From Parcubacteria group bacterium (GTDB lineage Bacteria; Patescibacteriota; Minisyncoccia; Phycocordibacterales; Phycocordibacteraceae): a stretch of 43,389 bases of DNA. Position numbers and translations under genes: made by a program. Numbering within the stretch: the stretch's first letter is position 1; every line of letters begins with the position of its first letter. The stretch is from contig JAQBQV010000001.1 of assembly GCA_028286825.1 (NCBI GenBank), positions 1 through 43,389 on the forward strand. The letters run 5' to 3'. Positions 4,572 through 20,882 of the stretch are shown one piece after another. A model generated the notes under the pieces. The model ran no database searches. It had not been told where the DNA came from and saw only the letters and a program-made list of their open reading frames with translations.

Positions 4572-5246
4572 ATGCGAGTACTAGTAGTAGAAGACGAACA
4601 GAAGCTGGCTGAAGGAATAAAGAAAGGTCTTGAGAAGAACGCCTATGCTGTAGATGTGCTTGGGGACGGGGAAAAGGCGCTCACTCGTATCTCGGTCCAC
4701 CGTGACGACTACGACATTGTCATCTTGGACCTAATGCTTCCTTCCCTCTCTGGGCTCGAAGTATGTACGCAGGCACGAGCATTAGGCGTGGTCGTGCCGA
4801 TCCTCATCCTCACGGCGCGCGCTGAGACCGACAATAAGGTGAAGCTCCTTCTTGCTGGTGCTGACGACTATCTCGTAAAGCCATTCTCCTTTGAAGAACT
4901 CTTGGCACGCATGCAAGCCTTACTGCGCCGACCTAAGGAAAAAGTGCCCGATGTGCTTAAGGTACACGATCTTGAGCTTGACCCGACTACACACATCGCC
5001 CGCAAGGATGGAGAGATTCTTGAGCTGACTCTTAAAGAGTTTATGCTGCTTGAGTATTTCATGCGGCATCCGAACGAGGTGATCAATCGCGAAGATCTCT
5101 TGACCCATCTCTGGGATTTCAACTACGAATCGTTTAGCAACGTCATTGATGTTCATGTTAAAAATCTTCGAAGAAAAATTGGCGAGACTGGTAGCGACGG
5201 AATACTGGAGACGGTCCGTGGGATTGGTTACCGTCTACGCGTCTAA
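4572..5246 (+). CDS. OmpR/PhoB-family response regulator
   Basis: 224 aa. N-terminal receiver domain (1-118) with acidic pocket E7/D8, phospho-acceptor D53 in ILDLMLP, T81 in ILTAR and K103 in YLVKPF. C-terminal winged-helix DNA-binding domain (about 128-222) with LTLKEFMLLEYFMRHP, VDVHVKNLRRKIG and the closing TVRGIGYRLRV. It receives phosphate from the kinase encoded immediately downstream, whose start overlaps this gene by 29 bp, so the two are almost certainly co-translated. The signal and regulon are unknown; an inverted repeat upstream may be its own operator. Confidence 0.95.
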   Translation: MRVLVVEDEQKLAEGIKKGLEKNAYAVDVLGDGEKALTRISVHRDDYDIVILDLMLPSLSGLEVCTQARALGVVVPILILTARAETDNKVKLLLAGADDYLVKPFSFEELLARMQALLRRPKEKVPDVLKVHDLELDPTTHIARKDGEILELTLKEFMLLEYFMRHPNEVINREDLLTHLWDFNYESFSNVIDVHVKNLRRKIGETGSDGILETVRGIGYRLRV

Positions 5247-6264
5247 ATATAGGCGGGACCCGTTCTTCCGCACTGAGTTTAACGTTATTGCGCTCCAAAT
5301 CCTTTTTGGCTTATTCATTTTGTTTGTAGTGGTTCAGGGGGTTGCCCTCCGCTACCAGAGACTGCCCATGATGGCGATTATCGTGATTAGTACGGCGATC
5401 TTCGTCTACCTCATCACCCGACTTGCGCTTGCACCGGCACGTAACGCACTTGAGGCCCAGAAGCAGTTTATCGGGAATATCGCCCATGAACTACGCACTC
5501 CGCTCTCGGTGATTAAGACCAATACGGAGGTCGCCCTTCTCGACGACACCGCTCCCATCGGCATGCGAGAGACGCTCCACGATACGATCGAAGAGCTCGA
5601 CCGCATTTCCGACATTATCAACAACCTTCTCTCATTGAACGTACTCGTTCGCCAAGAGAAAATGACGTTTACCAACGTCGACCTTGGAGTGGTCGTGAGG
5701 CGGATGACTAAGCATTTGCATATTTTAATTACTAAAAAGAAAATCAATCTGTCGATAAGCGAAAGCGAATATCAAAATGTGTGGGGCAACACCACCGCCC
5801 TCGAGCAGATCGTTATGAATGTGCTCAAAAACGCAGTGAACTATACGCTACCTGAAGGTTCGATCACATTATCTATTAAGCCCGACTACCAGGGTCATAT
5901 TCTCCTCACCGTCGAAGACACTGGGATTGGCATCGAAAAGAAAGATCTCAATCGAATTTTTGAACCCTTCTTTAGAAGCGATCAGTCTCGGGCACGAATC
6001 AGCGGAGGTAGCGGGCTTGGGCTCGCTATCGTGAACGAGCTCATCAAACTTCACCGGGGGTCTATGCTCATCCAGAGTGCCAAAGACTACGGCACGTTAG
6101 TGGAGATAACTCTTCCCTGCGGCCACGAGCCAGACAGGGTACCGATCGAGCGCCGTAAAGAGGATCAGCCAGTACACCGGGAGCGCCGCAAACGAGTATC
6201 TGAGGTAGAAATCAATTACTCCCAACTCCCCTTTACCAAGAAAGACCACGGGCGCCGTTCATAA
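5218..6264 (+). CDS. Sensor histidine kinase
   Basis: 348 aa from GTG 5218, chosen because GGAG (5207-5210) lies 7 nt upstream; the track start at 5146 would extend far into the regulator gene with a charged, non-membrane N-terminus. Two transmembrane helices (about 22-43 and 50-68) with almost no extracytoplasmic loop. HisKA segment with phospho-accepting H90 in FIGNIAHELRTPLSV; N box (EQIVMNVLKNAVNYT), G1 (VEDTGIGI), F (FEPFFRSD) and G2 (GGSGLGLAIV) of the ATPase domain. The tail of about 50 residues after the ATPase core is rich in Arg/Lys/Glu (ERRKEDQPVHRERRKR). With so little extracellular sequence it probably senses the membrane itself or a partner protein. Confidence 0.94.
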   Translation: MGLVTVYASKYRRDPFFRTEFNVIALQILFGLFILFVVVQGVALRYQRLPMMAIIVISTAIFVYLITRLALAPARNALEAQKQFIGNIAHELRTPLSVIKTNTEVALLDDTAPIGMRETLHDTIEELDRISDIINNLLSLNVLVRQEKMTFTNVDLGVVVRRMTKHLHILITKKKINLSISESEYQNVWGNTTALEQIVMNVLKNAVNYTLPEGSITLSIKPDYQGHILLTVEDTGIGIEKKDLNRIFEPFFRSDQSRARISGGSGLGLAIVNELIKLHRGSMLIQSAKDYGTLVEITLPCGHEPDRVPIERRKEDQPVHRERRKRVSEVEINYSQLPFTKKDHGRRS

Positions 6265-6323
6265 TTGCTTCATCCGGCCGTGAGTACACTTAGGGTTAAT
6301 GCAGTATGGTCATGGTCGCAAAC

Positions 6324-6357
6324 AAAAAAAATGGAGGGATCCGCTTAAAGATCCTCC
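6324..6357 (-). terminator. Minus-strand intrinsic terminator (acyltransferase side)
   Basis: Read on the minus strand: GGAGGATC, 8-nt loop, GATC(C)CTCC with one bulge, then an uninterrupted T-run (plus-strand A-run 6324-6331). It lies about 100 bp beyond the stop of the acyltransferase gene. Confidence 0.7.
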
Positions 6358-6377
6358 AGAAGATATTCTGATGTAAT

Positions 6378-6428
6378 GCCGGGGAGGCTGCGCCAATAAA
6401 AAGCGCAACCTCCCCGGCACCTTTTTAT
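6378..6428 (+). terminator. Plus-strand intrinsic terminator after the two-component operon
   Basis: GCCGGGGAGG-ctGCGC / GCGC-aa-CCTCCCCGGC stem with a short A-rich loop, then ACCTTTTTATT. The two opposing terminators (this one and 6324-6357) are crossed in the convergent gap. Confidence 0.85.
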
Positions 6429-6456
6429 TAGTTTTAGTCACGACTACTAATGTTGC

Positions 6457-8541
6457 TTATTTTTTTGATGACGTTTTGATCGCTATAAAGACTTGCGTAA
6501 ACAACGCCTCAAGGCTCATCGCGCCCGCAGTACTTATATGGTCCTCATCTCGATAAATCAGTTTGCCTTTGTTTTCTAGTGCGCACACACCTCCCTTCTC
6601 GCATAAAATGGCGGCTGGATCAATAATGCGAACGCCTGGGAGTGCTCCGAGGCTATCAATCACAGCGTTGGGAAACGTCTGATACATCTGGTGACGACTC
6701 GCTTTGATACTTTGCAGCTCGAGACGCTCGCCTAAATGCACCGCACGATAAAACGCGTCGCGAATATTAAAATCAAATTGCTCTGGTACTTGTTTGACGA
6801 GTACGACCTCACGACCTTCACGTGACCACTCCCGTACCATTGCGGTTAGATTTTTTTCTAATACGAGCACTGCCTCCTTTGATGAGACCGACGCTTGTTC
6901 CGAGTCGGTAATAAATGCTTTTGAGTCTCCAGAAGAACCTCCCATCACGTAGTAACTCCAGCGACTGATCAAAAAAACAGTATGAATGTCGTACTTCTGT
7001 ATGTATGCAAGAGCAGATGTCGTTTCTTCTTCGCAGCTGGTAGCCGCTGGTAACTGATGAACACCATTAACTGGGATACAAAAAGCACCATCAAACACTG
7101 TTCCCCTCACGCCGTAGGCGCGTCCTAATGTGTTAAATAACGGGACGAGCGCTTCTGCGTGACTGTCGCCCCATACGACAAAGTCAGCACCGCGTGCTAT
7201 CGAACCTATATCTCCTATCGAGCAGAGAGCTTCATCTACAAATTGACGAGAACAAACGCCTCCCCAGGGTACGTTTTCTGCTGACGCGAGCAATATATTC
7301 TTGCCGACAAGCGGAACTCGATTGATCACTTCGCCTGATGTCCTCTGTATAAGAAAGCCGAGTAGTGAGAGAAGCATAAGAGAGGCGAAACCGAAGTAGA
7401 GCATATCTCTCCGCAGAGGAAAGAAAACTTTCTTTCGAAAGGGAGTCTCGATAAACCTATACGATAACCATGCGAGAACAACTGATGTCAGCATAAGAAG
7501 GAGCGCTGTTGTGTTCGAGATTGGAATGGTTGCTGTCAGATTGGCGAATGCGAATAATGGCCAATGCCACAAATAGAGTGAGTAAGAAATCAATCCGACC
7601 CATACGAGGCCAGGGTATGCAAGAACTGCCCCGACCTTGGTTATATGACTCTCATTTGCAACAATAATGGCCGCCGCTCCCAGGGTCGGCAACAGTGCCG
7701 CTACGCCCGGAAAATGCGTACTGTCGCTAAATAGAAACGCTGCGGCCATAACTGAGCCGATGCCGGTAAGAGCAAGAATTTCTGACCACACTATTGATCG
7801 GATACATACGGGATAGAGTGCAATCAGAATGCCGACCCCGATCTCCCATGCACGACTCGGCAGTAGATAAAATCCGGCGGTTCCATACGTCATTGCTGAA
7901 AACACTGACGCAGGCGCTACGTTAACGAACCAAATGTTAATGAGGAATGAAATGAAACCGAGTATAAGTACGCAGCCTAACAGCATGCGCTGCCCACCCC
8001 AGCGCTCAGTGAGCATTATGATTCGCCCCTTACGCTTCGCGAACCATACGCAAAAGAACACTATGCCTGGGAATACGAGGTAAAACTGCTCTTCAACTGA
8101 AAGTGACCAGGTGTGAAGCAAGGGCGAGTAGCGCGCAGACTGTTCGAAGTAGTTATCTGTCACTGCAAAAAGCATGTTCGAAGCGAATAGGCTCTGCGCT
8201 ATGACGGTCGTACCAAAGTCGTGATACTCCGGTGGGTATAAAATAAGCGCATAACTTGCGATACTTGTTGCTAAAATAACGGCAACAACAACGGGGACGA
8301 TACGGCGAATACGGCGTTCCCAAAAACCAATAAGGGAGAATGTGCCTGCCTGGACGTCTCGCATGATAATCGACGTAATCAAAAAACCTGAGATTACAAA
8401 GAACACATCAACTCCAATAAAGCCCCCGCCCACCGATAAGAACCGCGCGTGGTACAGCACCACAAGAATGACAGCAACACCCCGCAAACCGTCAATGTGT
8501 GGACGATACGATATCGCGTTCGTACCGTCTGGATACGCCAT
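6457..8541 (-). CDS. Acyltransferase-3 / SGNH two-domain membrane O-acyltransferase
   Basis: 694 aa, OafA/OatA-like layout. N-terminal acyltransferase-3 domain (about 10-380) of some ten membrane helices with the family motifs RPHIDGLRGVAVILVVLYH (catalytic H31), FIGVDVFFVISGFLI, FWERRIRRI and LHTWSLSVEEQFYLVFP. C-terminal extracytoplasmic SGNH hydrolase-like domain with GDSH (about residue 457) and DxxH-type DEDHIS (about 665). Such proteins move acyl groups, often acetyl, across the membrane onto sugars of peptidoglycan or surface glycans; the acceptor here is unknown. It starts 23 bp after the gyrB stop on the same strand and is probably read through from gyrB. No Shine-Dalgarno is visible. 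Confidence 0.92.
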   Translation of the reverse strand: MAYPDGTNAISYRPHIDGLRGVAVILVVLYHARFLSVGGGFIGVDVFFVISGFLITSIIMRDVQAGTFSLIGFWERRIRRIVPVVVAVILATSIASYALILYPPEYHDFGTTVIAQSLFASNMLFAVTDNYFEQSARYSPLLHTWSLSVEEQFYLVFPGIVFFCVWFAKRKGRIIMLTERWGGQRMLLGCVLILGFISFLINIWFVNVAPASVFSAMTYGTAGFYLLPSRAWEIGVGILIALYPVCIRSIVWSEILALTGIGSVMAAAFLFSDSTHFPGVAALLPTLGAAAIIVANESHITKVGAVLAYPGLVWVGLISYSLYLWHWPLFAFANLTATIPISNTTALLLMLTSVVLAWLSYRFIETPFRKKVFFPLRRDMLYFGFASLMLLSLLGFLIQRTSGEVINRVPLVGKNILLASAENVPWGGVCSRQFVDEALCSIGDIGSIARGADFVVWGDSHAEALVPLFNTLGRAYGVRGTVFDGAFCIPVNGVHQLPAATSCEEETTSALAYIQKYDIHTVFLISRWSYYVMGGSSGDSKAFITDSEQASVSSKEAVLVLEKNLTAMVREWSREGREVVLVKQVPEQFDFNIRDAFYRAVHLGERLELQSIKASRHQMYQTFPNAVIDSLGALPGVRIIDPAAILCEKGGVCALENKGKLIYRDEDHISTAGAMSLEALFTQVFIAIKTSSKK

Positions 8542-8564
8542 GTGGATAGAGCTACTGAGTCACG

Positions 8565-10625
8565 CTACACGTCGAGATTAGCGAGCTTTGCGTTGCTTTG
8601 GATGAACGACTTGCGTGATGCGACATCACTGCCCATGAGAATATCGAAAATCCGATCTGCTGCCTCAGCGTCGTCGATCGTAACTCGCTTTAGGACGCGG
8701 CGAGCTGGGTCCATAGTTGTTTCCCAGAGCTCTGAGGCGTTCATTTCTCCTAGACCTTTGTAGCGCTGTACATTTGCTTTTGAAGGCTTCTTGCTAGCCA
8801 CCGCCTCTTCCTCTGTTTCTACGGGAGCATCATCTTCTTCGCCCACGAGTGCGACTTCAGTTGGCGCAACGCCCATTTCCTTAAGCACCGCCTCTTTCTC
8901 AGGATCAGAATACGCATAGGCTATCGCTTTACCTCTGGTGATCTTATAGAGAGGTGGTTGAGCAATATAGACAAATCCGCCATCGATGATAGGCCGGAAA
9001 TGGCGGTAGAAGAGTGTAAGGATGAGCGTACGGATGTGCGCCCCGTCGACGTCGGCATCAGTTGCAATAATGAGCTTGTGGTACCGGAGCTTCGACAAAT
9101 CAAACACATCGCCGATTGCAGTACCAAGCGCGACGACCAAGTTTTTTACCTGTTCTGACGCAAGCATCTTATCGAGACGTGCCCGTTCAACGTTGAGGAT
9201 CTTGCCGCGTAGAGGCAGAATCGCCTGTGTGCGACGATCGCGACCCATCTTAGCAGTACCACCGGCCGAGTCTCCCTCTACGACAAAGAGTTCGCTCTCT
9301 TCCGCACTCTTTGTCTGACAGTCAGCGAGCTTGCCTGGCAAGGTCATCCCTTCAAGAGCTCCCTTGCGAAGCACCGAGTCTTTCGCGGCTTTTGCAGCCT
9401 TTCGGGCCTTGAGAGCAATCAAAACTTTGTTGATGATGGCGCGAGCGTCGTCCGGGTTTTCTTCAAGATAGGCCCCGAGCGCTTCGCCAAAGACCGTTCC
9501 CACAGCACTCTGCGCTTCGACACTCCCTAACTTACTCTTAGTCTGTCCTTCAAATTGAATCTCAGGGAGCTTTACTGATACAACCGCAGTGATACCTTCG
9601 AGCACGTCGTCTCCCGTAAAGTTCTCATCCTTCTCTTTCAAAATGTTGGCGTTTCGGCCGTAGGTATTAAGTGAGCGCGTCAGTGCGGTCTTAAAGCCCG
9701 TGATGTGTGTGCCACCTTCACTGTTGTAGGTGTTGTTTGCAAAAGCGGTAATGCGGGACGTAATGTCGTCAACGTACTGAAGCGCCACCTCGACCATTAC
9801 TCCGTCAAGTTCACGGTCTACATAAAAAATATTTTTGTGCACCGGAACTTGATGCTTATTGTAAAACGCAACGAGTGACTTCAACCCGCCTTCAAAGTAG
9901 AAGGTCATGCTTGGTACATCAAGTGTCATGTCACGTAGGAACAACGTGTCAGTTTCAAATGCCTCACTACTCGTGCGGGCATCGTAAATAGCAATACGTA
10001 CGCCCTTCACGAGGTACGCCTGCTGGCGCAAGTGGTTGACGATCTTCTCAAGACTCATGTCGATGCCGTCTTTGAAGATGGTAATGTCAGGCTTAAAAAG
10101 CACGATCGTACCATGCTCTTTAGTCGTACCGATCTTCTTTACTTTTGCCTGCGGCTTACCGATCTTGTACTCCTGTATGTGCATGCCGCCATCCTGGTGC
10201 ACCACCACTTTCGTGTGTTCAGAAAGCGCGTTCACGACTGAGGCACCTACACCATGGAGACCACCCGAAACTTTATACGCGTCGTTGTCGAATTTACCTC
10301 CGGCGTGAAGGGTGGTCATGATCGTCTCAAGTGCTGAGACTTTGGTCTTTGGGTGAATGCCTACCGGAATGCCATTACCGTTGTCAGCAACTCTGACGTA
10401 GCCGTCAGGCAAAAGCGCGACCTCAATGTCATCACAGCGAGCGGCCATCGCTTCGTCCCGCGAGTTATCGAAAATCTCCCACACCAGGTGATGGAGACCG
10501 TCGACACCCGTGGTGCCGATATACATTCCAGGGCGCTTGCGGACCGGCTCGAGACCCTCAAGGACGGTAATAGATGAAGCGTCGTAGGCCTTTTGTTTAG
10601 GCTCTTTTTCGGTTGCTTTTGCCAT
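8565..10625 (-). CDS. gyrB: DNA gyrase subunit B
   Basis: 686 aa. GHKL ATPase domain with VRKRPGMYIG, the E-N-G box around VADNGNGIPVGIHP and GGLHGVGASVVNALS; transducer domain; TOPRIM domain with EGDSAGG (about 447), the DxD box ATDADVDGAHI (about 521) and PLRGKILNVE. With GyrA it introduces negative supercoils using ATP. The length is that of the compact Gram-positive-like GyrB forms. An insert rich in Glu/Asp/Ala (about residues 595-625) sits in the TOPRIM-Zn region before the closing QRYKGLGEMN. Promoter with extended -10 TGCTAGAAT and a real AGGAGT Shine-Dalgarno 9 nt before ATG, an exception to the leaderless style here. Could in principle be ParE, but no second gyrase gene is in view. 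Confidence 0.95.
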   Translation of the reverse strand: MAKATEKEPKQKAYDASSITVLEGLEPVRKRPGMYIGTTGVDGLHHLVWEIFDNSRDEAMAARCDDIEVALLPDGYVRVADNGNGIPVGIHPKTKVSALETIMTTLHAGGKFDNDAYKVSGGLHGVGASVVNALSEHTKVVVHQDGGMHIQEYKIGKPQAKVKKIGTTKEHGTIVLFKPDITIFKDGIDMSLEKIVNHLRQQAYLVKGVRIAIYDARTSSEAFETDTLFLRDMTLDVPSMTFYFEGGLKSLVAFYNKHQVPVHKNIFYVDRELDGVMVEVALQYVDDITSRITAFANNTYNSEGGTHITGFKTALTRSLNTYGRNANILKEKDENFTGDDVLEGITAVVSVKLPEIQFEGQTKSKLGSVEAQSAVGTVFGEALGAYLEENPDDARAIINKVLIALKARKAAKAAKDSVLRKGALEGMTLPGKLADCQTKSAEESELFVVEGDSAGGTAKMGRDRRTQAILPLRGKILNVERARLDKMLASEQVKNLVVALGTAIGDVFDLSKLRYHKLIIATDADVDGAHIRTLILTLFYRHFRPIIDGGFVYIAQPPLYKITRGKAIAYAYSDPEKEAVLKEMGVAPTEVALVGEEDDAPVETEEEAVASKKPSKANVQRYKGLGEMNASELWETTMDPARRVLKRVTIDDAEAADRIFDILMGSDVASRKSFIQSNAKLANLDV

Positions 10626-14513: not shown

Positions 14514-15191
14514 ATGTCACTCTTTATCCGCAATATACTTATCTCTCTTGGTATTACCGTCCTTCTTATTGGGACCGTTACCTACGCCATTAGTTATTTA
14601 AATAGAGCGCGTATCACGGAGCTGACGGCTATTGAGGATCAGCTTTCGATTGAAACCCTCTCTCTTGAGACCCAGTTCTCACTGCTAGAAACAGCGCCAT
14701 GTGAGACAAGTGCGTCATCAACAGCGCTCTCTAGCGAACTAACGAACCTCGACAATCGCCTTTCCTATACGGAGAATCAATTAGGTAGTGACAACCCTCA
14801 AGTATTGCAGCTCAAAAAGCAGTATTCGCTTCTTGAAATTCGAGATTATTTGATTACAAAAAAGCTAGCGGCTGCCTGTAAGACGAAGCCCGTCACGGTC
14901 CTGTATTTCTACAGTAATGCGGGCGATTGTAGCGAGTGCGACAAGGCGGGATATGCGCTTTCCTATTTACGCGATACGTATCCATCGCTGCGCGTGTACT
15001 CGTTTGACTACAACCTTGACCTTGGCGCGCTTAAAACCTTCATTGCGGTGACGAAGGTCAAAGACAAACTCCCGGCCTTTGTAATCTCAGACCAACACTA
15101 CTACGGCTTCACAACGCTCGAGGAACTGGAAAAACAATTCCCCAAAGGAGCACTTGCAACCTCAACAGCAACTACAACTGTTCGTCAGTAA
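14514..15191 (+). CDS. Membrane protein with coiled coil and thioredoxin-like CxxC domain
   Basis: 225 aa. One N-terminal transmembrane helix (about 8-28), an extracytoplasmic helical/coiled-coil stretch (32-115), then a small alpha/beta domain (about 124-212) that opens with PVTVLYFYSNAGDCSECDKAG. The C139-S-E-C142 pair following a beta strand, and the later LPAFVISDQHYYG strand with a cis-Pro-like position, resemble thioredoxin folds. The role could be a disulfide oxidoreductase outside the membrane or a redox-linked partner of the glycosyltransferase upstream; this is inference. The 3' end overlaps the convergent sortase gene by 20 bp. Confidence 0.6.
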   Translation: MSLFIRNILISLGITVLLIGTVTYAISYLNRARITELTAIEDQLSIETLSLETQFSLLETAPCETSASSTALSSELTNLDNRLSYTENQLGSDNPQVLQLKKQYSLLEIRDYLITKKLAAACKTKPVTVLYFYSNAGDCSECDKAGYALSYLRDTYPSLRVYSFDYNLDLGALKTFIAVTKVKDKLPAFVISDQHYYGFTTLEELEKQFPKGALATSTATTTVRQ

Positions 15192-15753
15192 AGACCACTA
15201 ACCTTTTTGAAGAGCTTTTAGTCACTGGGTCCCAATAGCCTTCGCAGGTAATAAGATTTAAATGACCTTTCCCATCATTTGAATTAAATACTAACGATGC
15301 ATCCCCGCTAGCGTCATACGTCCGCATTTCGCGTACTATAAACGTAGTTTGCGCTCCCGCATCGTCTTCCACCGTTACTTTGTCGCCTTTTTCGAGTGTG
15401 GCGAGTTTGTCAAATACAGCCGGTATCCCGTCCTTCCATCCTGAATGGCCGTCAATAACAGCACTACCGATATCGCCAGGTCGAGTCCCGAACTTGTACC
15501 ACCCCACGTGAATAGGACCTGTCGGTGCATCCATTGCTCCTGACGCAGTCACTCCTACTGCTTCGATGTGCGTATCGATATTGATCTTCGGAATTGTTAA
15601 GCGAATTGGTTGGGTAACTTCAGTATGTAACACCACATCCGTAACGCCATGATCAAACCAGTTGCCACTTTCTATTGCACTCAACACGAAAATAGCTGCA
15701 GTCAGAGCGACTGCAGCTATTACTAGAGTTCGTTTTAGAGCTGCCTTCGGCAC
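15172..15753 (-). CDS. Sortase paired with the DUF3494 surface protein
   Basis: 193 aa, GTG start at 15753. N-terminal membrane anchor (about 8-28), then a sortase domain (50-192) with H103 in IDGHSGWK, C170 in LITCEGYW and R184 in SSKRLVVF. The LITCEG signature and short length differ from the first sortase (TLSTC), so the two are not recent duplicates. It lies 14 bp downstream of a gene whose product ends in FPNTG, a hydrophobic segment and a short tail. That strongly suggests a dedicated enzyme-substrate pair for covalent surface attachment. Confidence 0.92.
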   Translation of the reverse strand: MPKAALKRTLVIAAVALTAAIFVLSAIESGNWFDHGVTDVVLHTEVTQPIRLTIPKINIDTHIEAVGVTASGAMDAPTGPIHVGWYKFGTRPGDIGSAVIDGHSGWKDGIPAVFDKLATLEKGDKVTVEDDAGAQTTFIVREMRTYDASGDASLVFNSNDGKGHLNLITCEGYWDPVTKSSSKRLVVFTDEQL

Positions 15754-15767
15754 AGTGCTACGCGTTA

Positions 15768-16850
15768 TTAAACCGCCTGCTTTGAGTAGGCGCCACCAAT
15801 GCCGACGATTGTCATAAGTAGAGCCGCGATAGCGAGCAGCATATCCAATCTGGCATCAGTTTTTTGAGGACCGAATCCAGTGTTTGGGAAACTCGGGGTA
15901 ACCGTTGTTGTCGTAACGGTTGTCGTAGTCGGTGTCGCAGTTGGCTGAGAAATAGCTGTTGGCGTAGGATTGGTTGGTGTAACAGATACGGTTGTCGCAG
16001 CAGCAGGTTTTGGAGTGGACGAATTGGCAACCGGCGTTGCAGCTACTATTGGTACTGGAGCTGCGACGGGAGTAGGCGTAGGAGCAGCATTTGCTGAAAT
16101 GGATATTGTATTGCTATCGAGCGTCACAGCCGTCTGAGCGAGCGCCCTACCCTGAAGAGTTGCACCAGTATTCATGACAATTGCCGTCTGGTCCAGAATA
16201 ATTCCACTGAAATTTGAATTTGTTCCAAGCGTTGTTTGGCCCGCAACCTGCCAGAAGACGTGAGAAGGCTGAGCGCCTCCACTAAGAATAATGTGTACGC
16301 TAGAACTCACAGTGAGATTCCCTGCGATTTGGAATATCCATACGTCGTTTGCACCACCTGAGAGGGTGACATCAGTAGGTATGATGACATCGGTACTCCA
16401 CTTATAAAGACCTGGCGAAAGTGTCATTGCGCCAATGTTTCCTGCTCCCAAACCGGTTGCAGTCGGGTTTGATCTGCCTGCGGCATCGGTGTACGCCGTC
16501 TCCATGTCACTAATGGCAGTGCTCATGTTCGCGGGTGTTGGGGTAGCATAGTCCGATGCGTACACCTTACCGCTTACCACTGCTGATGTTGAAAAAGCAT
16601 TTTGTGAATCCATGATAAGCCCAAACCCTGTTATTCCGCTTGCGGCGATAGGGCTTACGCCTATGTCTCCTGTGACAGAGGTCCCACCTGTCGTGGAGAT
16701 TCCTGACTTCGCCAGAATGACGAAGTCACCGGCCGATCCTAAATTAACTAGCGCAGGGCCTGCAGCAAATGCAGTTACGGGTAATATTGTTCCAGCAATC
16801 AGTAGGCCTGCGAGCGCTGTAACGATAGGTTTGTTAAAAGTCTGTGTCAT
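15768..16850 (-). CDS. DUF3494 ice-binding-like surface protein with FPNTG sorting signal
   Basis: 360 aa. Signal peptide (1-30), then a DUF3494 / ice-binding-type beta-solenoid domain (about 34-250; LGSAGDFVILAKSGIST, VTGDIGVSP, LSPGLYKWSTDVIIP, DVWIFQIAGNL, HVFWQVAG). A Pro/Thr/Ala linker (255-318) leads to a C-terminal sorting signal: FPNTG (321-325), a hydrophobic stretch (335-354) and a short tail with one Lys. DUF3494 proteins include ice-binding adhesins but also many with no ice activity, so the function here is best described as adhesin-like. Neighbour of the sortase that probably anchors it. A TAAAAT box lies 8 nt before the ATG. Confidence 0.88.
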   Translation of the reverse strand: MTQTFNKPIVTALAGLLIAGTILPVTAFAAGPALVNLGSAGDFVILAKSGISTTGGTSVTGDIGVSPIAASGITGFGLIMDSQNAFSTSAVVSGKVYASDYATPTPANMSTAISDMETAYTDAAGRSNPTATGLGAGNIGAMTLSPGLYKWSTDVIIPTDVTLSGGANDVWIFQIAGNLTVSSSVHIILSGGAQPSHVFWQVAGQTTLGTNSNFSGIILDQTAIVMNTGATLQGRALAQTAVTLDSNTISISANAAPTPTPVAAPVPIVAATPVANSSTPKPAAATTVSVTPTNPTPTAISQPTATPTTTTVTTTTVTPSFPNTGFGPQKTDARLDMLLAIAALLMTIVGIGGAYSKQAV

Positions 16851-16942
16851 AATAGGTGATTTTAATAGGATTAAGATGAAGCCTTATAGATAAGATCGTT
16901 TCATATACCCAAGTATTACAGAAAAAAGTCTTAGTGGTAAGG

Positions 16943-17491
16943 TTATGAATCCTTTGAAGTAAAAATAGTATGTAACCAACTGTCTTTAGTGTCGTGGGTT
17001 AGCACGAAATCCTGCAGCACGCGGTCATCATCTTCAAGTGCTTGTACTGCGATAGTGAGAGCTTGACGACTATCGCTTTTCTTCATCGTGCCAATCAGTG
17101 TCTGAAGCTGCTCTACGTTCAGCTTGGTGCGAGCTGATTGTGCCTTTAGAAGGTCGAGGCTATGACGGTCTTGCCCGAAGAAAAAGTACACAAGACTTCC
17201 ACGTGACGACAATTTTTCTATTGCGTCTGTGGTGAAGGCTTCCTCAGCTTGTTCGATTTTCACAATGGCTCGAATTTGCTCGATATTTGCATTTACCTTA
17301 TCTAAAGTCTCCGGTATATTACGGCTCGCTAAAACCAGAGCAGTGACGCATGACCTGTGGGCCTGTGCCATGAGTTGGCCCTGCACACTCTCACTTATGC
17401 CTTTTGTTTCCGGCGAAGCAAGTACAGCCATCGGTATAAGGACTAACAGAGCTGCTGTGACCGACAAAATATATCCTCGCGTGTATTTCAT
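16943..17491 (-). CDS. Small secreted helical protein, unknown
   Basis: 182 aa from ATG 17491 (MKYTRGYILSVTAALLVLIPMAVLA, signal peptide). ATG 17518 is an alternative that adds a basic MPQRRRDLY head; the track start at 17533 is a TTG and unlikely. The mature part is almost entirely helical with regular Gln/Leu/Ala heptad-like spacing (NANIEQIRAIVKIEQAEEAF, LLKAQSARTKLNVEQLQTLI) and a single Cys. I do not recognise the family. A short CTTA/TAAG hairpin with a T-run lies just downstream (about 16920-16942), a weak terminator. Confidence 0.6.
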   Translation of the reverse strand: MKYTRGYILSVTAALLVLIPMAVLASPETKGISESVQGQLMAQAHRSCVTALVLASRNIPETLDKVNANIEQIRAIVKIEQAEEAFTTDAIEKLSSRGSLVYFFFGQDRHSLDLLKAQSARTKLNVEQLQTLIGTMKKSDSRQALTIAVQALEDDDRVLQDFVLTHDTKDSWLHTIFTSKDS

Positions 17492-17576
17492 ATACAGGTC
17501 ACGACGCCGCTGAGGCATGTTACTTACACCCAAAGCTCAGCTGTAATAAGAGAGCTCTTTATGCGACTATAGTTGT

Positions 17577-17936
17577 ATGGACTCATATAATTCACCGACG
17601 ACAAAGCCGCTATATCGCGGGACACAGATTGTTTGGTATATTCTCGGTTTACTAGAAGTGCTTTTAGCGTTTCGCTTTGTGCTTAAATTACTCGGTGCTA
17701 ACGCTGCCGCTGGGTTTACTAGTTTTATTTATGGCGTGACGTATATTTTCGCTGCTCCATTCTTAAACGTATTTCGAATGACTCAGTCAGCCGGTCATAT
17801 CTTTGAGTGGACGACGCTGCTCGCAATGCTCGTCTATTGGATGCTCGCAATTGGCATTATCAAACTCTTCCTTATGGGCAAGACTGTCTCGACACCGGAG
17901 GCTGCCGTAAAGTTAGATAACCAAGAAAATGCATAA
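17577..17936 (+). CDS. YggT-like small membrane protein
   Basis: 119 aa with two long hydrophobic segments (about 18-40 and 77-102) joined by the YggT-type signature FRFVLKLLGAN...FIYGVTYIFAAPFLNVFR. YggT proteins are integral membrane proteins linked to osmotic stress and cell envelope in other bacteria; the biochemical role is unknown. A TATAGT box lies 3 nt before the ATG, so the mRNA may be leaderless. The gene is followed within 4 bp by a second tiny membrane protein. Confidence 0.7.
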   Translation: MDSYNSPTTKPLYRGTQIVWYILGLLEVLLAFRFVLKLLGANAAAGFTSFIYGVTYIFAAPFLNVFRMTQSAGHIFEWTTLLAMLVYWMLAIGIIKLFLMGKTVSTPEAAVKLDNQENA

Positions 17937-17940
17937 CAGT

Positions 17941-18072
17941 ATGCTGTGGACCATCATCGCGGTTCTCCTTATCCTATGGCTACTCGGGTTTAATCTCCAT
18001 ATAGGAGGCGATCTCATCCATACGCTTCTCGTCATCGTACTGATTATTGTGATCGCTAAACTCCTCCTTTGA
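17941..18072 (+). CDS. Lmo0937-type 43-aa membrane protein
   Basis: Too short for the ORF track. From ATG 17941: MLWTIIAVLLILWLLGFNLH, a glycine turn IGGDLIHTLL and a second helix ending AKLLL, stop TGA. This two-helix hairpin with LWLLG and GG(x)IH matches the lmo0937 family of tiny membrane proteins, whose function is not known. A start at ATG 17929, four codons earlier and overlapping the YggT-like gene, is possible. Probably co-transcribed with it. Confidence 0.75.
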   Translation: MLWTIIAVLLILWLLGFNLHIGGDLIHTLLVIVLIIVIAKLLL

Positions 18073-18105
18073 GCCGCCTCTACGAAGTACTGACTTTCCC
18101 GGATA

Positions 18106-18456
18106 TTAGGGTTTAAGACGGCGTGTTCTCCAAGCTCTCCCCTTACCCTTATTTAAATTGCGAAATGAAGGAGTGAGAGCATGGCAATTCGGACAACGTA
18201 ACCTGACATTTGTAGGGCGGTTATTTTCAGCATTACCATCAATATGATCAACTTCGACTGGTATTCGCTGTGTAGTAGGGTTTCTTTCATTCCAGTTACA
18301 AACTGAACATTTTTCTCCATACGTATCCACCAAAAAGCGCTTAATGTATCCAGATATATTCTTGGTTACTCTATTTCGCTTTCCCGAGATCCATTCCTTC
18401 AGAAAAATCTGATGCTGAAAACTAACAGAGGAGTCCCTCTTAAAACACGCTAGAAC
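18106..18456 (-). pseudogene. 5'-truncated HNH endonuclease
   Basis: The C-terminal HNH core is intact: CSVCNW zinc knuckle, VEVDHIDGNAENNRPTNVRL and CPNCHALT, ending in basic NKGKGRAWRTRR. The frame stays open upstream of the track start (a GTG at 18333) to a TAG at 18457-18459, and this extension still looks homologous to full-length HNH proteins of the 'FxxW..G...HIRRYLxEKYxxxCxxCGW' type (IFLKEWISGKRNR, GYIKRFLVDTYGEKC). No ATG or plausible start precedes it, and the usual N-terminal zinc-finger part is absent. The GTG could still give a 75-aa HNH core. Interpreted as a truncated remnant fused by deletion to the avd remnant just upstream. Confidence 0.6.
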
Positions 18457-18697
18457 CTATTTCTCCCAAGATCCCTAACTCTCTCGCCCGCTTGCTTTGC
18501 CAGATCAGATTGTCCAAGATGTCGATTCTTCTCGGCGACTCGCGTGTGTTATTGACCTACAGGATGAGTAGGATAACTTAGACATTTGCGCCAAGTATTG
18601 TCTCGCCCAAGAAATACTTTTACTGCTTGCAGAACTTTGGTATGCGCAGGTACAGCTCGCGAAGCAATTCAAACGCAGTGCTATAGATGGGTAAGTG
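18440..18697 (-). pseudogene. avd: Decayed avd (diversity-generating retroelement accessory protein)
   Basis: In one minus-strand frame, directly downstream of the DUF1566 gene, the translation reads LPIYSTAFELLRELYLRIPKF, then KYFLGETILGANV, VILLIL, and VNNTRESPRRIDILDNLIWQ, KRARELG. This matches the four-helix Avd pattern (LPIYxxxxELLxELYLxxxxFPK..KYxLGExI...). Three stops interrupt it: TAA 18622-18620, TAA 18580-18578 and TAG 18559-18557, with no frameshift; the last helix is missing before TAA 18442. Functional Avd binds the DGR reverse transcriptase and is needed for mutagenic homing. This copy cannot make it by normal decoding. Recognition is from memory of the family. Confidence 0.7.
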
Positions 18698-18758
18698 TCA
18701 GTCGCGGGTTATACAAGGCAAGATTTTTCGGAGTCAAATCACCAAATACCCAAATGAC

Positions 18759-19580
18759 CTAAGATGCTCGGACGCAACGAACGCGAAACGTGCCGGACTT
18801 AATGCCGTAGGGCGTAAAGCCATCATCGAAGTTAACGCCCCAGGCGTAGTCCTTGTAGCCCGGGTATTGGCCAGTAGTAGCAGACCAATAGCTGCCCGAG
18901 TAGGTATTGGGAAACTTCGCAGTATCGATTGCTGGGGCTGCTTGTCCATAGTCGACCATGGTGAGAAGTTCCCGTATGTTTGGTAAGTGCCAGCCAGTGG
19001 TATGACCAGCGTAGCTGAGTGCCGCGCAATAGGTGAGTGCGTCTGACCAGGTCATCTGGGTCGCAGTCCCTGTAGAGCAATCCGCACCGCTCAACCCTTC
19101 CGAACACTTCTTCCACATAAGGCTGGTAGCACCATCGGTGATGGTACCGTTCGTGTTGTCGGTATAGGTGCGGGCGATGCCTCGCTTGAGTGCACCGTCT
19201 TGTTCGACGCCTATGCCCGAGCAGTCGGCAATGGGCGTGCCGTTAACATTCCAGCAGGTGGTTTGATTAGTCTTGAGCGGAGCGGCAGAGGAAAGGGCCG
19301 CTTTGGCGTCTACTGCGGCGTTGTACAGGTCGGCAAGCGAATGGAACGTAGCTATTGTAGGAGAAGATGTTGTGGAGACAGTGTGGTTCGCTTCAGTTGC
19401 GTTGGTGTTGGTCGTGAGTTTCTGGTAGATATCTTCGAGTGTATAGCTGGTAGCAGCTGGAGTACCCGAAGGTGGTGTGAGAGACCCAGCGTACGCGACT
19501 CCGGCGACTGCCAGCGTCGCGATGAGAATACTTAAAGTGAACCGGAGGGCGGGAAGAACGTTTTTCATTGTGATTTTCAT
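18759..19580 (-). CDS. DUF1566 surface protein, probable DGR variable protein
   Basis: 273 aa (ATG 19580; ATG 19568 also possible). Signal peptide/anchor (1-31), a Ser/Thr/Ala-rich spacer with the motifs YTLEDIYQKL and FHSLADLYNAAVDAK (45-100), then a DUF1566 / Lcl C-terminal domain (about 135-273): RTYTDNTNGTITDGATSLMW, WSDALTYCAAL, GWHLPNIRELLTMVDY, SGSYWSATT, FRVRCVRAS. DUF1566 is a recognised target fold of diversity-generating retroelements, with variable residues at its C-terminal end. Here the last codons show that mutagenesis signature (18786-18872) and an avd remnant follows. Likely a surface-displayed ligand-binding protein. It begins 3 bp after the stop of the PG-binding repeat protein gene, so the two are co-transcribed. 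Confidence 0.88.
   Translation of the reverse strand: MKITMKNVLPALRFTLSILIATLAVAGVAYAGSLTPPSGTPAATSYTLEDIYQKLTTNTNATEANHTVSTTSSPTIATFHSLADLYNAAVDAKAALSSAAPLKTNQTTCWNVNGTPIADCSGIGVEQDGALKRGIARTYTDNTNGTITDGATSLMWKKCSEGLSGADCSTGTATQMTWSDALTYCAALSYAGHTTGWHLPNIRELLTMVDYGQAAPAIDTAKFPNTYSGSYWSATTGQYPGYKDYAWGVNFDDGFTPYGIKSGTFRVRCVRAS
18786..18872 (-). other. Putative DGR variable region core in the DUF1566 gene
   Basis: 29 codons after SYWSATT. By hand count 22 of 29 end in C or T and the remaining seven are CAA, CCG, AAG, TGG, ACG, AAG and ACG, so nearly all can be derived from AAY/AAR template codons by changing adenines. Only one AAC is left. It is flanked on the 3' side by the invariant-looking CGCGTTCGTTGCGTCCG segment that would hold the homing-initiation site. 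The paired template repeat is not in the window. Confidence 0.6.
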
Positions 19581-19583
19581 AGG

Positions 19584-20492
19584 TTAATAATGGCTGTTGA
19601 TAAAACCCCGAGTGAGCGGCCCGAAGTAGCCCACAGCAGGTGCAATGTCGTTACTTTTTTGAAAATTGATAAGCGCGGCTTTCGTGAGAGCGCCGAAGGT
19701 CGTCGTCTCGTTCCCCGGTGAACCAGGACCGCTTATCGCGAGAATAAATCCGTGGATGTTAAAGAACTTTTGCAGTATGCGTATGTCTTCGCCTGTCTCG
19801 CCTATCCGATGATTGATGAGAAACGAGTAGTGCGAGGGTATTGCGGTAGGAGGTATGGAAGTGGTTGAGGGCGGGATAGTAGGGGTAATAGGGACTGGGA
19901 CTTGCGTGGGTACACACTTGAGACTGCTCGAGCTCCACACCAAGCCAGTGCTACAAACCACCGCACCACGACCTCGTCTGCTCTGATGAACTACTGGGGT
20001 TGTTGGTGAGGGTGAGGGCGAAGAGGCAACTCGCCAGTCGGTAGTAACTGGGTGATCAACGGCAAAGACTATCCAACCGAGATTCTCTGAGTACGCGTAA
20101 CCGGAGAAAACACCTGAGCTATTTATCGTCACGCCACCGGCACTCGGCGCGAAGTCCACCCAGCCCGTGTTCTCTCCCCAAGCGAATCCGGAGAGCGTAC
20201 CGCTACCGTCGTTCGTGACTGCGTAGCTATTGGTCCCGCAGGAGCTTGTGTTGGAGCAATTAAGCGAGATCCAACCGACATTTTCGCCATAGGCATAGCC
20301 CGTGAGCGCAGAATCGGTCATGTGTACATTCCCTGCCGTAGTGCCGAAGTCTATCCAGCCCGCATTCTCCGACCAGGCCCATCGGTCGGTGGTGGAGACA
20401 GTGCCGTCAGTGGTCGAGGCGAGAGTGTGCTGTGCTGAAAATAGGAAAACGCATAAAAATAACAAGGGCAAAGCACGCATGCCACTTTTCAT
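19584..20492 (-). CDS. Surface repeat protein with C-terminal peptidoglycan-binding domain
   Basis: 302 aa. Signal peptide (1-25), then four repeats of about 35 residues built on W(A/S)ENxGWIDF...ITDSxLTGYAYGENVGWI (37-150), a Ser/Pro linker, a short Cys pair region (VVCSTGLVWSSSSLKCVP), a second Pro/Thr linker, and a PG_binding_1-like domain (about 230-300; GETGEDIRILQKFFNIHGF, TFGALTKAALINFQKSN, YFGPLTRGFIN). The C-terminal domain probably holds the protein on the cell wall while the GENxGW repeats are exposed. First gene of an operon with the DUF1566 protein; an extended -10 (TGG-TAGACT, 20572-20564) lies about 70 bp upstream. Confidence 0.85.
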   Translation of the reverse strand: MKSGMRALPLLFLCVFLFSAQHTLASTTDGTVSTTDRWAWSENAGWIDFGTTAGNVHMTDSALTGYAYGENVGWISLNCSNTSSCGTNSYAVTNDGSGTLSGFAWGENTGWVDFAPSAGGVTINSSGVFSGYAYSENLGWIVFAVDHPVTTDWRVASSPSPSPTTPVVHQSRRGRGAVVCSTGLVWSSSSLKCVPTQVPVPITPTIPPSTTSIPPTAIPSHYSFLINHRIGETGEDIRILQKFFNIHGFILAISGPGSPGNETTTFGALTKAALINFQKSNDIAPAVGYFGPLTRGFINSHY

Positions 20493-20806
20493 AGTTGATA
20501 AAACGCGCCATACGAGAAAGAGAGTAAAATGCGTTGCGAATGTTCATATGAATGCACCCAGATAGTCTACCACGCCGCTGCGAACATAAGATGTCTTCGT
20601 AATCGCCAACCCTCGCCCTGCCGCTCCATTCCTTTTCCAAAGAAATTTCCCCGCAAAACACAAAGCATGGAGAGCGACATTGTTTCGTTAAAAAGCGAAG
20701 CGAATTAGGAAACAAGGAGTGACTTGTGGTTCGACAGCACGAGGGGCCGACCGCGAGTCGACGTTTCGTCGTACTATCGAGTGCAAAATGCCTTTATGTT
20801 CGTTAT
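20493..20806. other. Intergenic region, 314 bp, promoter but no gene
   Basis: No convincing coding frame: the track ORFs here (20302-20565 plus, 20407-20715 minus) overlap real genes in other frames or have no homology-like features. Minus strand TGG-TAGACT at 20572-20564 is a candidate promoter for the surface operon. A short CGACG-AAA-CGTCG hairpin near 20758-20772 lies downstream of the tRNA but has no T-run. Confidence 0.5.
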
Positions 20807-20882
20807 TGGAGCCGCCTCTCAGACTTGAACTGAGGACCTTCTCTTTACAAAAGAGTTGCTCTACCAACTGAGCTAAGGCGGC
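20807..20882 (-). tRNA. tRNA-Thr (anticodon TGT)
   Basis: Minus-strand cloverleaf: acceptor GCCGCCT/AGGCGGC, D arm GCTC-AGTTGGTA-GAGC, anticodon arm ACTCT-TTTGTAA-AGAGA with TGT at loop positions 3-5, T arm CTCAG-TTCAAGT-CTGAG, discriminator T and an encoded CCA. Reads ACA codons (and by wobble other ACN). The ORF 20688-21005 that covers it is not a gene. Confidence 0.97.

Follow-up and report, generated by a model that had tools for sequence, protein, structure and literature searches.

A probable decayed DGR with an intact Lcl_C target gene beside tRNA-Thr in a Parcubacteria group bacterium

Decayed DGRs are already known, and the locus described here is a new, well-resolved example. In cyanobacteria, all3226 is a dispersed homolog of a variable protein (VP), with no reverse transcriptase (RT) nearby and with remnant homology between template repeat (TR) and variable region (VR), for which it was suggested that the machinery was removed once a good variant had been selected (PMC7517822). 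In Pseudogulbenkiania sp. NH8B, distal targets are found beside a strongly mutated RT gene (DiGReF paper, PMC3521204). The DGRs of Patescibacteria form a separate clade (PMC8144416), and no description of the present locus or of this type of tRNA island was found in the open-access literature.

The locus was analyzed within a window of 43,389 nt, meaning the whole stretch of DNA under study. As with all3226, its VP is a homolog without an RT nearby, but all3226 is a dispersed paralog with no RT pseudogene beside it, whereas the cassette in the window is broken in place and retains a relic of avd. As in NH8B, the target lies beside broken machinery; there, however, a second RT in the genome has been proposed to act on those targets in trans, and no RT was found in the present 675-kb assembly. 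The locus is very probably the remnant of a decayed DGR that once diversified a surface Lcl_C protein, with diversification now stopped and VP fixed. Its features, in window coordinates, are as follows.

15172 to 20806, no strand assigned: island of ~5.6 kb between tRNA-Thr and a 225-aa gene
18106 to 18440, minus strand: HNH endonuclease gene, 5′-truncated (Pfam HNH_3, E 2e-5, just under the cut-off)
18425 to 18497, minus strand: putative deletion junction, where Avd homology stops and homology to the 5′-truncated HNH gene starts (~18425)
18443 to 18697, minus strand: avd pseudogene, start region absent, stops TAA/TAA/TAG, 3′ end missing
18759 to 19580, minus strand: VP gene, encoding a signal-peptide-like N terminus, a stalk, and a DUF1566/Lcl_C domain of C-type-lectin fold
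18768 to 19148, minus strand: Lcl_C domain inside VP (Pfam PF07603)
18768 to 18890, minus strand: former variable region, codons 231-271, aligned with the VR and TR of the intact relative L019
19584 to 20492, minus strand: partner gene, secreted, with W-rich repeats and a peptidoglycan-binding domain (PG_binding_1, E 1e-6)
20807 to 20882, minus strand: tRNA-Thr(tgt), conserved boundary of the insertion site

The DUF1566 gene named in the original prediction is real and complete, with 273 codons, no stop, and an Lcl_C match (PF07603) of 117.9 bits against a curated cut-off of 34.9. The AlphaFold2 model of its domain (pLDDT ~90) resembles the C-terminal domain of Legionella Lcl in structure comparison (8q4e, E 2e-4), which belongs to the same Pfam family and has the C-type-lectin fold predicted for VP, the likeness being one of fold only. 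A search of solved structures with the VP sequence gave weak, unrelated matches, which were set aside, and no relatives of VP were found in the viral contigs searched. Both marks of a decayed-DGR target, a C-type-lectin fold and a VR-equivalent stretch at the C terminus, are present. The protein would be displayed on the cell surface; a mutagenic element probably used to alter its tip, and it is now most likely limited to one version.

GTDB genomes were scanned for relatives of VP, and one full-length relative with a complete DGR was obtained, from the Candidatus Paceibacterota MAG AF21_PE0_T2_S1_39_14 (JAOAUE010000032.1, hereafter L019). Its VP matches residues 5-271 of the window VP, with 43% identity in the best segment, and its cassette is arranged as follows.

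5121 to 5999: partner gene
6001 to 6843: variable protein
6970 to 7371: avd
about 7486 to 7628: template repeat
about 7650 to 8759: reverse transcriptase

The TR and VR of L019 share 81% identity across 143 bases, with nearly all mismatches at template adenines. As in the window, partner gene, VP, and avd follow one another in the same order and orientation, and the cassette lies beside tRNA-Thr(tgt) and tsf; unlike the window, L019 has a TR, an RT, a second DGR, a serine recombinase, and long inverted repeats, and its cassette faces the opposite way relative to tsf. Intact DGRs with a TR/VR pair and an RT were also found in L020, G002 (same genus), G095, and G360. A stable hairpin 3′ of the VR was absent from the window and from intact L019, and one was seen in L020. 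Elsewhere in the set, a DGR-linked Lcl_C gene carries an in-frame TAG within a VP-avd-TR-RT cassette that is otherwise complete (L127, G360:C1:105-863). Another locus (L121, G454:C103:1-9000) has a single TR, VRs in two flanking Lcl_C genes, one Avd, and no RT within 9 kb, and may be a second cassette that lacks an RT or is served in trans.

Directly downstream of the VP gene, the Avd-like frame is broken, as had been claimed, by TAA, TAA, and TAG at codons 26, 40, and 47 (18622-18620, 18580-18578, and 18559-18557). Homology to Avd is demonstrable across 18697-18497 and fades at ~18497; the start region and the C-terminal part known from intact Avd proteins are missing. The assignment had been made from a sequence pattern, and a profile search had been proposed as its check. 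Among the profile collections, PHROG 3206 ("Avd protein of DGR") recognized the pseudogene at E 7e-4, NCBIfam DivGenRetAVD did so weakly (E 0.027), and no Pfam model matched it. In a search against the window, the Avd of L019 was 43% identical over 67 aa (E 3e-10), with an alignment score of 148 compared with a maximum of 50 among 2000 shuffles. This similarity to the Avd of an intact DGR is the strongest basis for the assignment, and together with the PHROG match it backs the recognition from pattern. The relic adjoins its target in the same order as in an intact DGR.

The original prediction had also read the last 29 codons of the VP gene, 22 of them NNY, as the footprint of adenine-specific change. 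The count is correct, but it is not above chance (P = 0.11): the remaining 230 codons are 63% NNY, and another 29-codon stretch of the gene holds 23 NNY codons. The NNY count by itself (P ~0.11) was therefore dropped as evidence of a DGR. Opposite the AAY codons of the L019 template, the window VP has NNY at 12 of 12 positions and a residue other than Asn at 11 of 12, and at codon positions 1-2 it mismatches 21 of 35 template-A bases versus 12 of 45 non-A bases (P = 0.003). This alignment lends modest support to past diversification of VP, adenine-specific change being not directly demonstrable because the gene's own template is gone. In the same columns, NNY codons make up 65 of 67 in DGR-linked Lcl_C domains and 238 of 278 in control Lcl_C domains with no RT nearby (complete in 9 of 25), some of which may be DGR targets too, now or formerly. 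Because these controls are NNY-rich too, the footprint is supportive of the DGR reading and not decisive; the codon argument is weaker than first put and needs the intact relative to carry weight.

The same figures bear on the possibility that the Lcl_C gene encodes an ordinary adhesin that no DGR ever targeted, with an unrelated relic of an Avd or a four-helix bundle next to it by coincidence. Lcl_C domains that have no RT nearby do vary, and are rich in NNY, at the same columns; the codon count falls short of significance when taken by itself; and G217 has the same partner gene ahead of a stalk protein that ends in a different C-terminal part, with no DGR nearby. Against this, the order and orientation of partner gene, VP, and avd are those of the intact L019 DGR, and the VP and Avd of L019 are the best relatives found, which makes a chance neighborhood quite improbable.

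Beyond the point where Avd homology ends, the HNH gene lacks its first ~29 residues, including the N-terminal CxxC...C zinc motif, and matches from residue 30 of intact 128-aa relatives; full-length 128-aa genes lie beside the same tRNA-Thr in four genomes of the genus (G057, G002, G014, and G029). Judged by the spacing in L019, at least ~1.3 kb of avd-TR-RT is missing from the window. Most likely, to go by this juxtaposition of truncated homologies, one deletion took the 3′ end of avd, the template repeat, the RT, and the 5′ end of the HNH gene, and such a deletion would account for both genes being truncated at the junction.

That no RT lies nearby was borne out in the window, where RT-like stretches were chance matches only and the putative RT remnants among them were rejected as such, and in the 675-kb assembly, where no RVT_1 domain was found. 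No second Avd was found in the assembly either. The genome-wide search proposed for a template matched at all but its adenines was likewise negative within these 675 kb: BLAST returned no template repeat, the best non-self match in a scan of the window had 44 mismatches in 126 positions, and a pattern in which every non-A base was also allowed to be A, with up to 3 mismatches, recovered the VR itself only. The statement that the target survives while the machinery is broken or absent thus holds for the avd pseudogene and for the RT and template of the binned 675 kb.

Two readings of this state had been offered, namely that diversification has stopped or that a second DGR acts on VP in trans while the local machinery is dead, and the former is much the better supported. 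Trans action has a precedent in the service of distant targets proposed for Pseudogulbenkiania (PMC3521204), an RVT_1 gene occurs in about a third of the genomes of the genus (24 of 66 good ones), and because the assembly is only about 70% complete (69.85% by marker estimate), an RT may lie elsewhere in the genome. On a rough estimate, however, any RT hidden in the unbinned ~30% is unlikely, and one with a matching template has a much lower chance still. A DGR acting in trans would have to sit in this unbinned part and carry a VP template, RT, second Avd, and A-tolerant template all being absent from the 675 kb; a search of 93 genomes of the genus found no other Lcl_C gene, which makes it improbable that a resident DGR would have a template to match. 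Trans diversification of VP is accordingly regarded as highly improbable. Since the machinery has most likely been deleted and avd is broken, diversification of VP is taken to have stopped.

The island holds VP, its partner gene, the avd and HNH relics, a YggT-like gene, a sortase, and an ice-binding-like protein. At 15172-16850, the sortase gene adjoins the ice-binding-like protein (PF11999), which has a C-terminal sorting-type motif. The partner gene adjoins VP in L019, G095, and G104 as well. In G217, the W-rich partner gene (L123:1995-2942) also precedes a stalk-bearing surface protein with no DGR nearby, and it may be a general display module of the lineage. Of the 93 genomes of the genus, 92 have the small membrane gene that adjoins tsf here; in the genomes examined it comes after tsf and is usually followed by tRNA-Thr, and in about 13 of 20 inspected further the 225-aa gene and a glycosyltransferase come directly after the tRNA. 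Elsewhere in the genus the tRNA-Thr/tsf insertion site is empty or differently filled. The Lcl_C gene is absent from the other 92 of the 93 genus genomes, and the cassette was therefore probably acquired laterally.

The recombinase beside the L019 cassette, at the same tRNA-Thr/tsf place, suggests a route of arrival. In the window, no second tRNA-Thr end of the kind expected of an attachment-site scar was found, and neither were remnants of the recombinase or its inverted repeats. In Paceibacterota relatives (L019:1667-10752; L014:1359-10297; L166-L185), a large serine recombinase usually lies between inverted repeats of up to ~160 bp, and in 18 of 20 further loci one end is at the 3′ end of a tRNA gene (Thr, Phe, Arg, Gly, Leu, Ala, Cys, or Val). 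In several of these loci, inverted repeats of ~110-350 bp enclose a second segment, the one that holds the DGR cassette in L019 and L014; the arrangement resembles an integrative element that recurs, with modules that appear invertible. Three further genomes of the order have the recombinase at this tsf-adjacent tRNA-Thr(tgt) (L179, L180, and L181, in G388, G194, and G360), which marks the insertion site in the window as a recurrent attachment site.

Whether VP outlived its machinery by selection or by recency was weighed from the distribution of stops. If the whole cassette, VP included, were decaying neutrally, VP would be intact because the decay is recent; the sequence comes from the MAG of one species, and absence of the gene from the other 92 genomes of the genus would allow a transient acquisition. 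Yet avd has 3 stops in 85 codons and is truncated, as is the HNH gene, whereas there is no stop in the 273 codons of VP or the 302 of the partner gene, and the intactness of VP would have a probability of 5e-5 had it and avd decayed alike. Neutral decay of VP is thus unlikely, and this single-genome comparison, for which there was no close relative to estimate dN/dS, suggests that VP has been under selection since the break.

The preferred reading remains that of a decayed DGR with a fixed target. A cassette of partner gene, VP, avd, TR, and RT would have come to the tRNA-Thr/tsf insertion site; a deletion would then have removed the 3′ end of avd, the TR, the RT, and the 5′ start of the neighboring HNH gene; and the leftover avd would have gathered nonsense mutations. 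With diversification halted, VP would now be a conventional surface protein of fixed sequence, on which selection probably still acts. This order of events is our reconstruction. A fuller history, put forward tentatively and as somewhat short of an even chance, has the DGR abandoned after use: a mobile island would have brought the diversifiable VP to tRNA-Thr, a useful variant would have arisen, the machinery would have been deleted, and selection would now keep the fixed variant as an ordinary adhesin.

If the preferred reading is correct, a DGR has been caught after the loss of its engine with its target intact, and the steps of that loss can be read from intact relatives. The fixation of DGR variants by discarding the machinery would thereby become testable in one lineage. 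The locus also serves as a warning that a surface gene with DGR-like codons is not necessarily hypervariable today.
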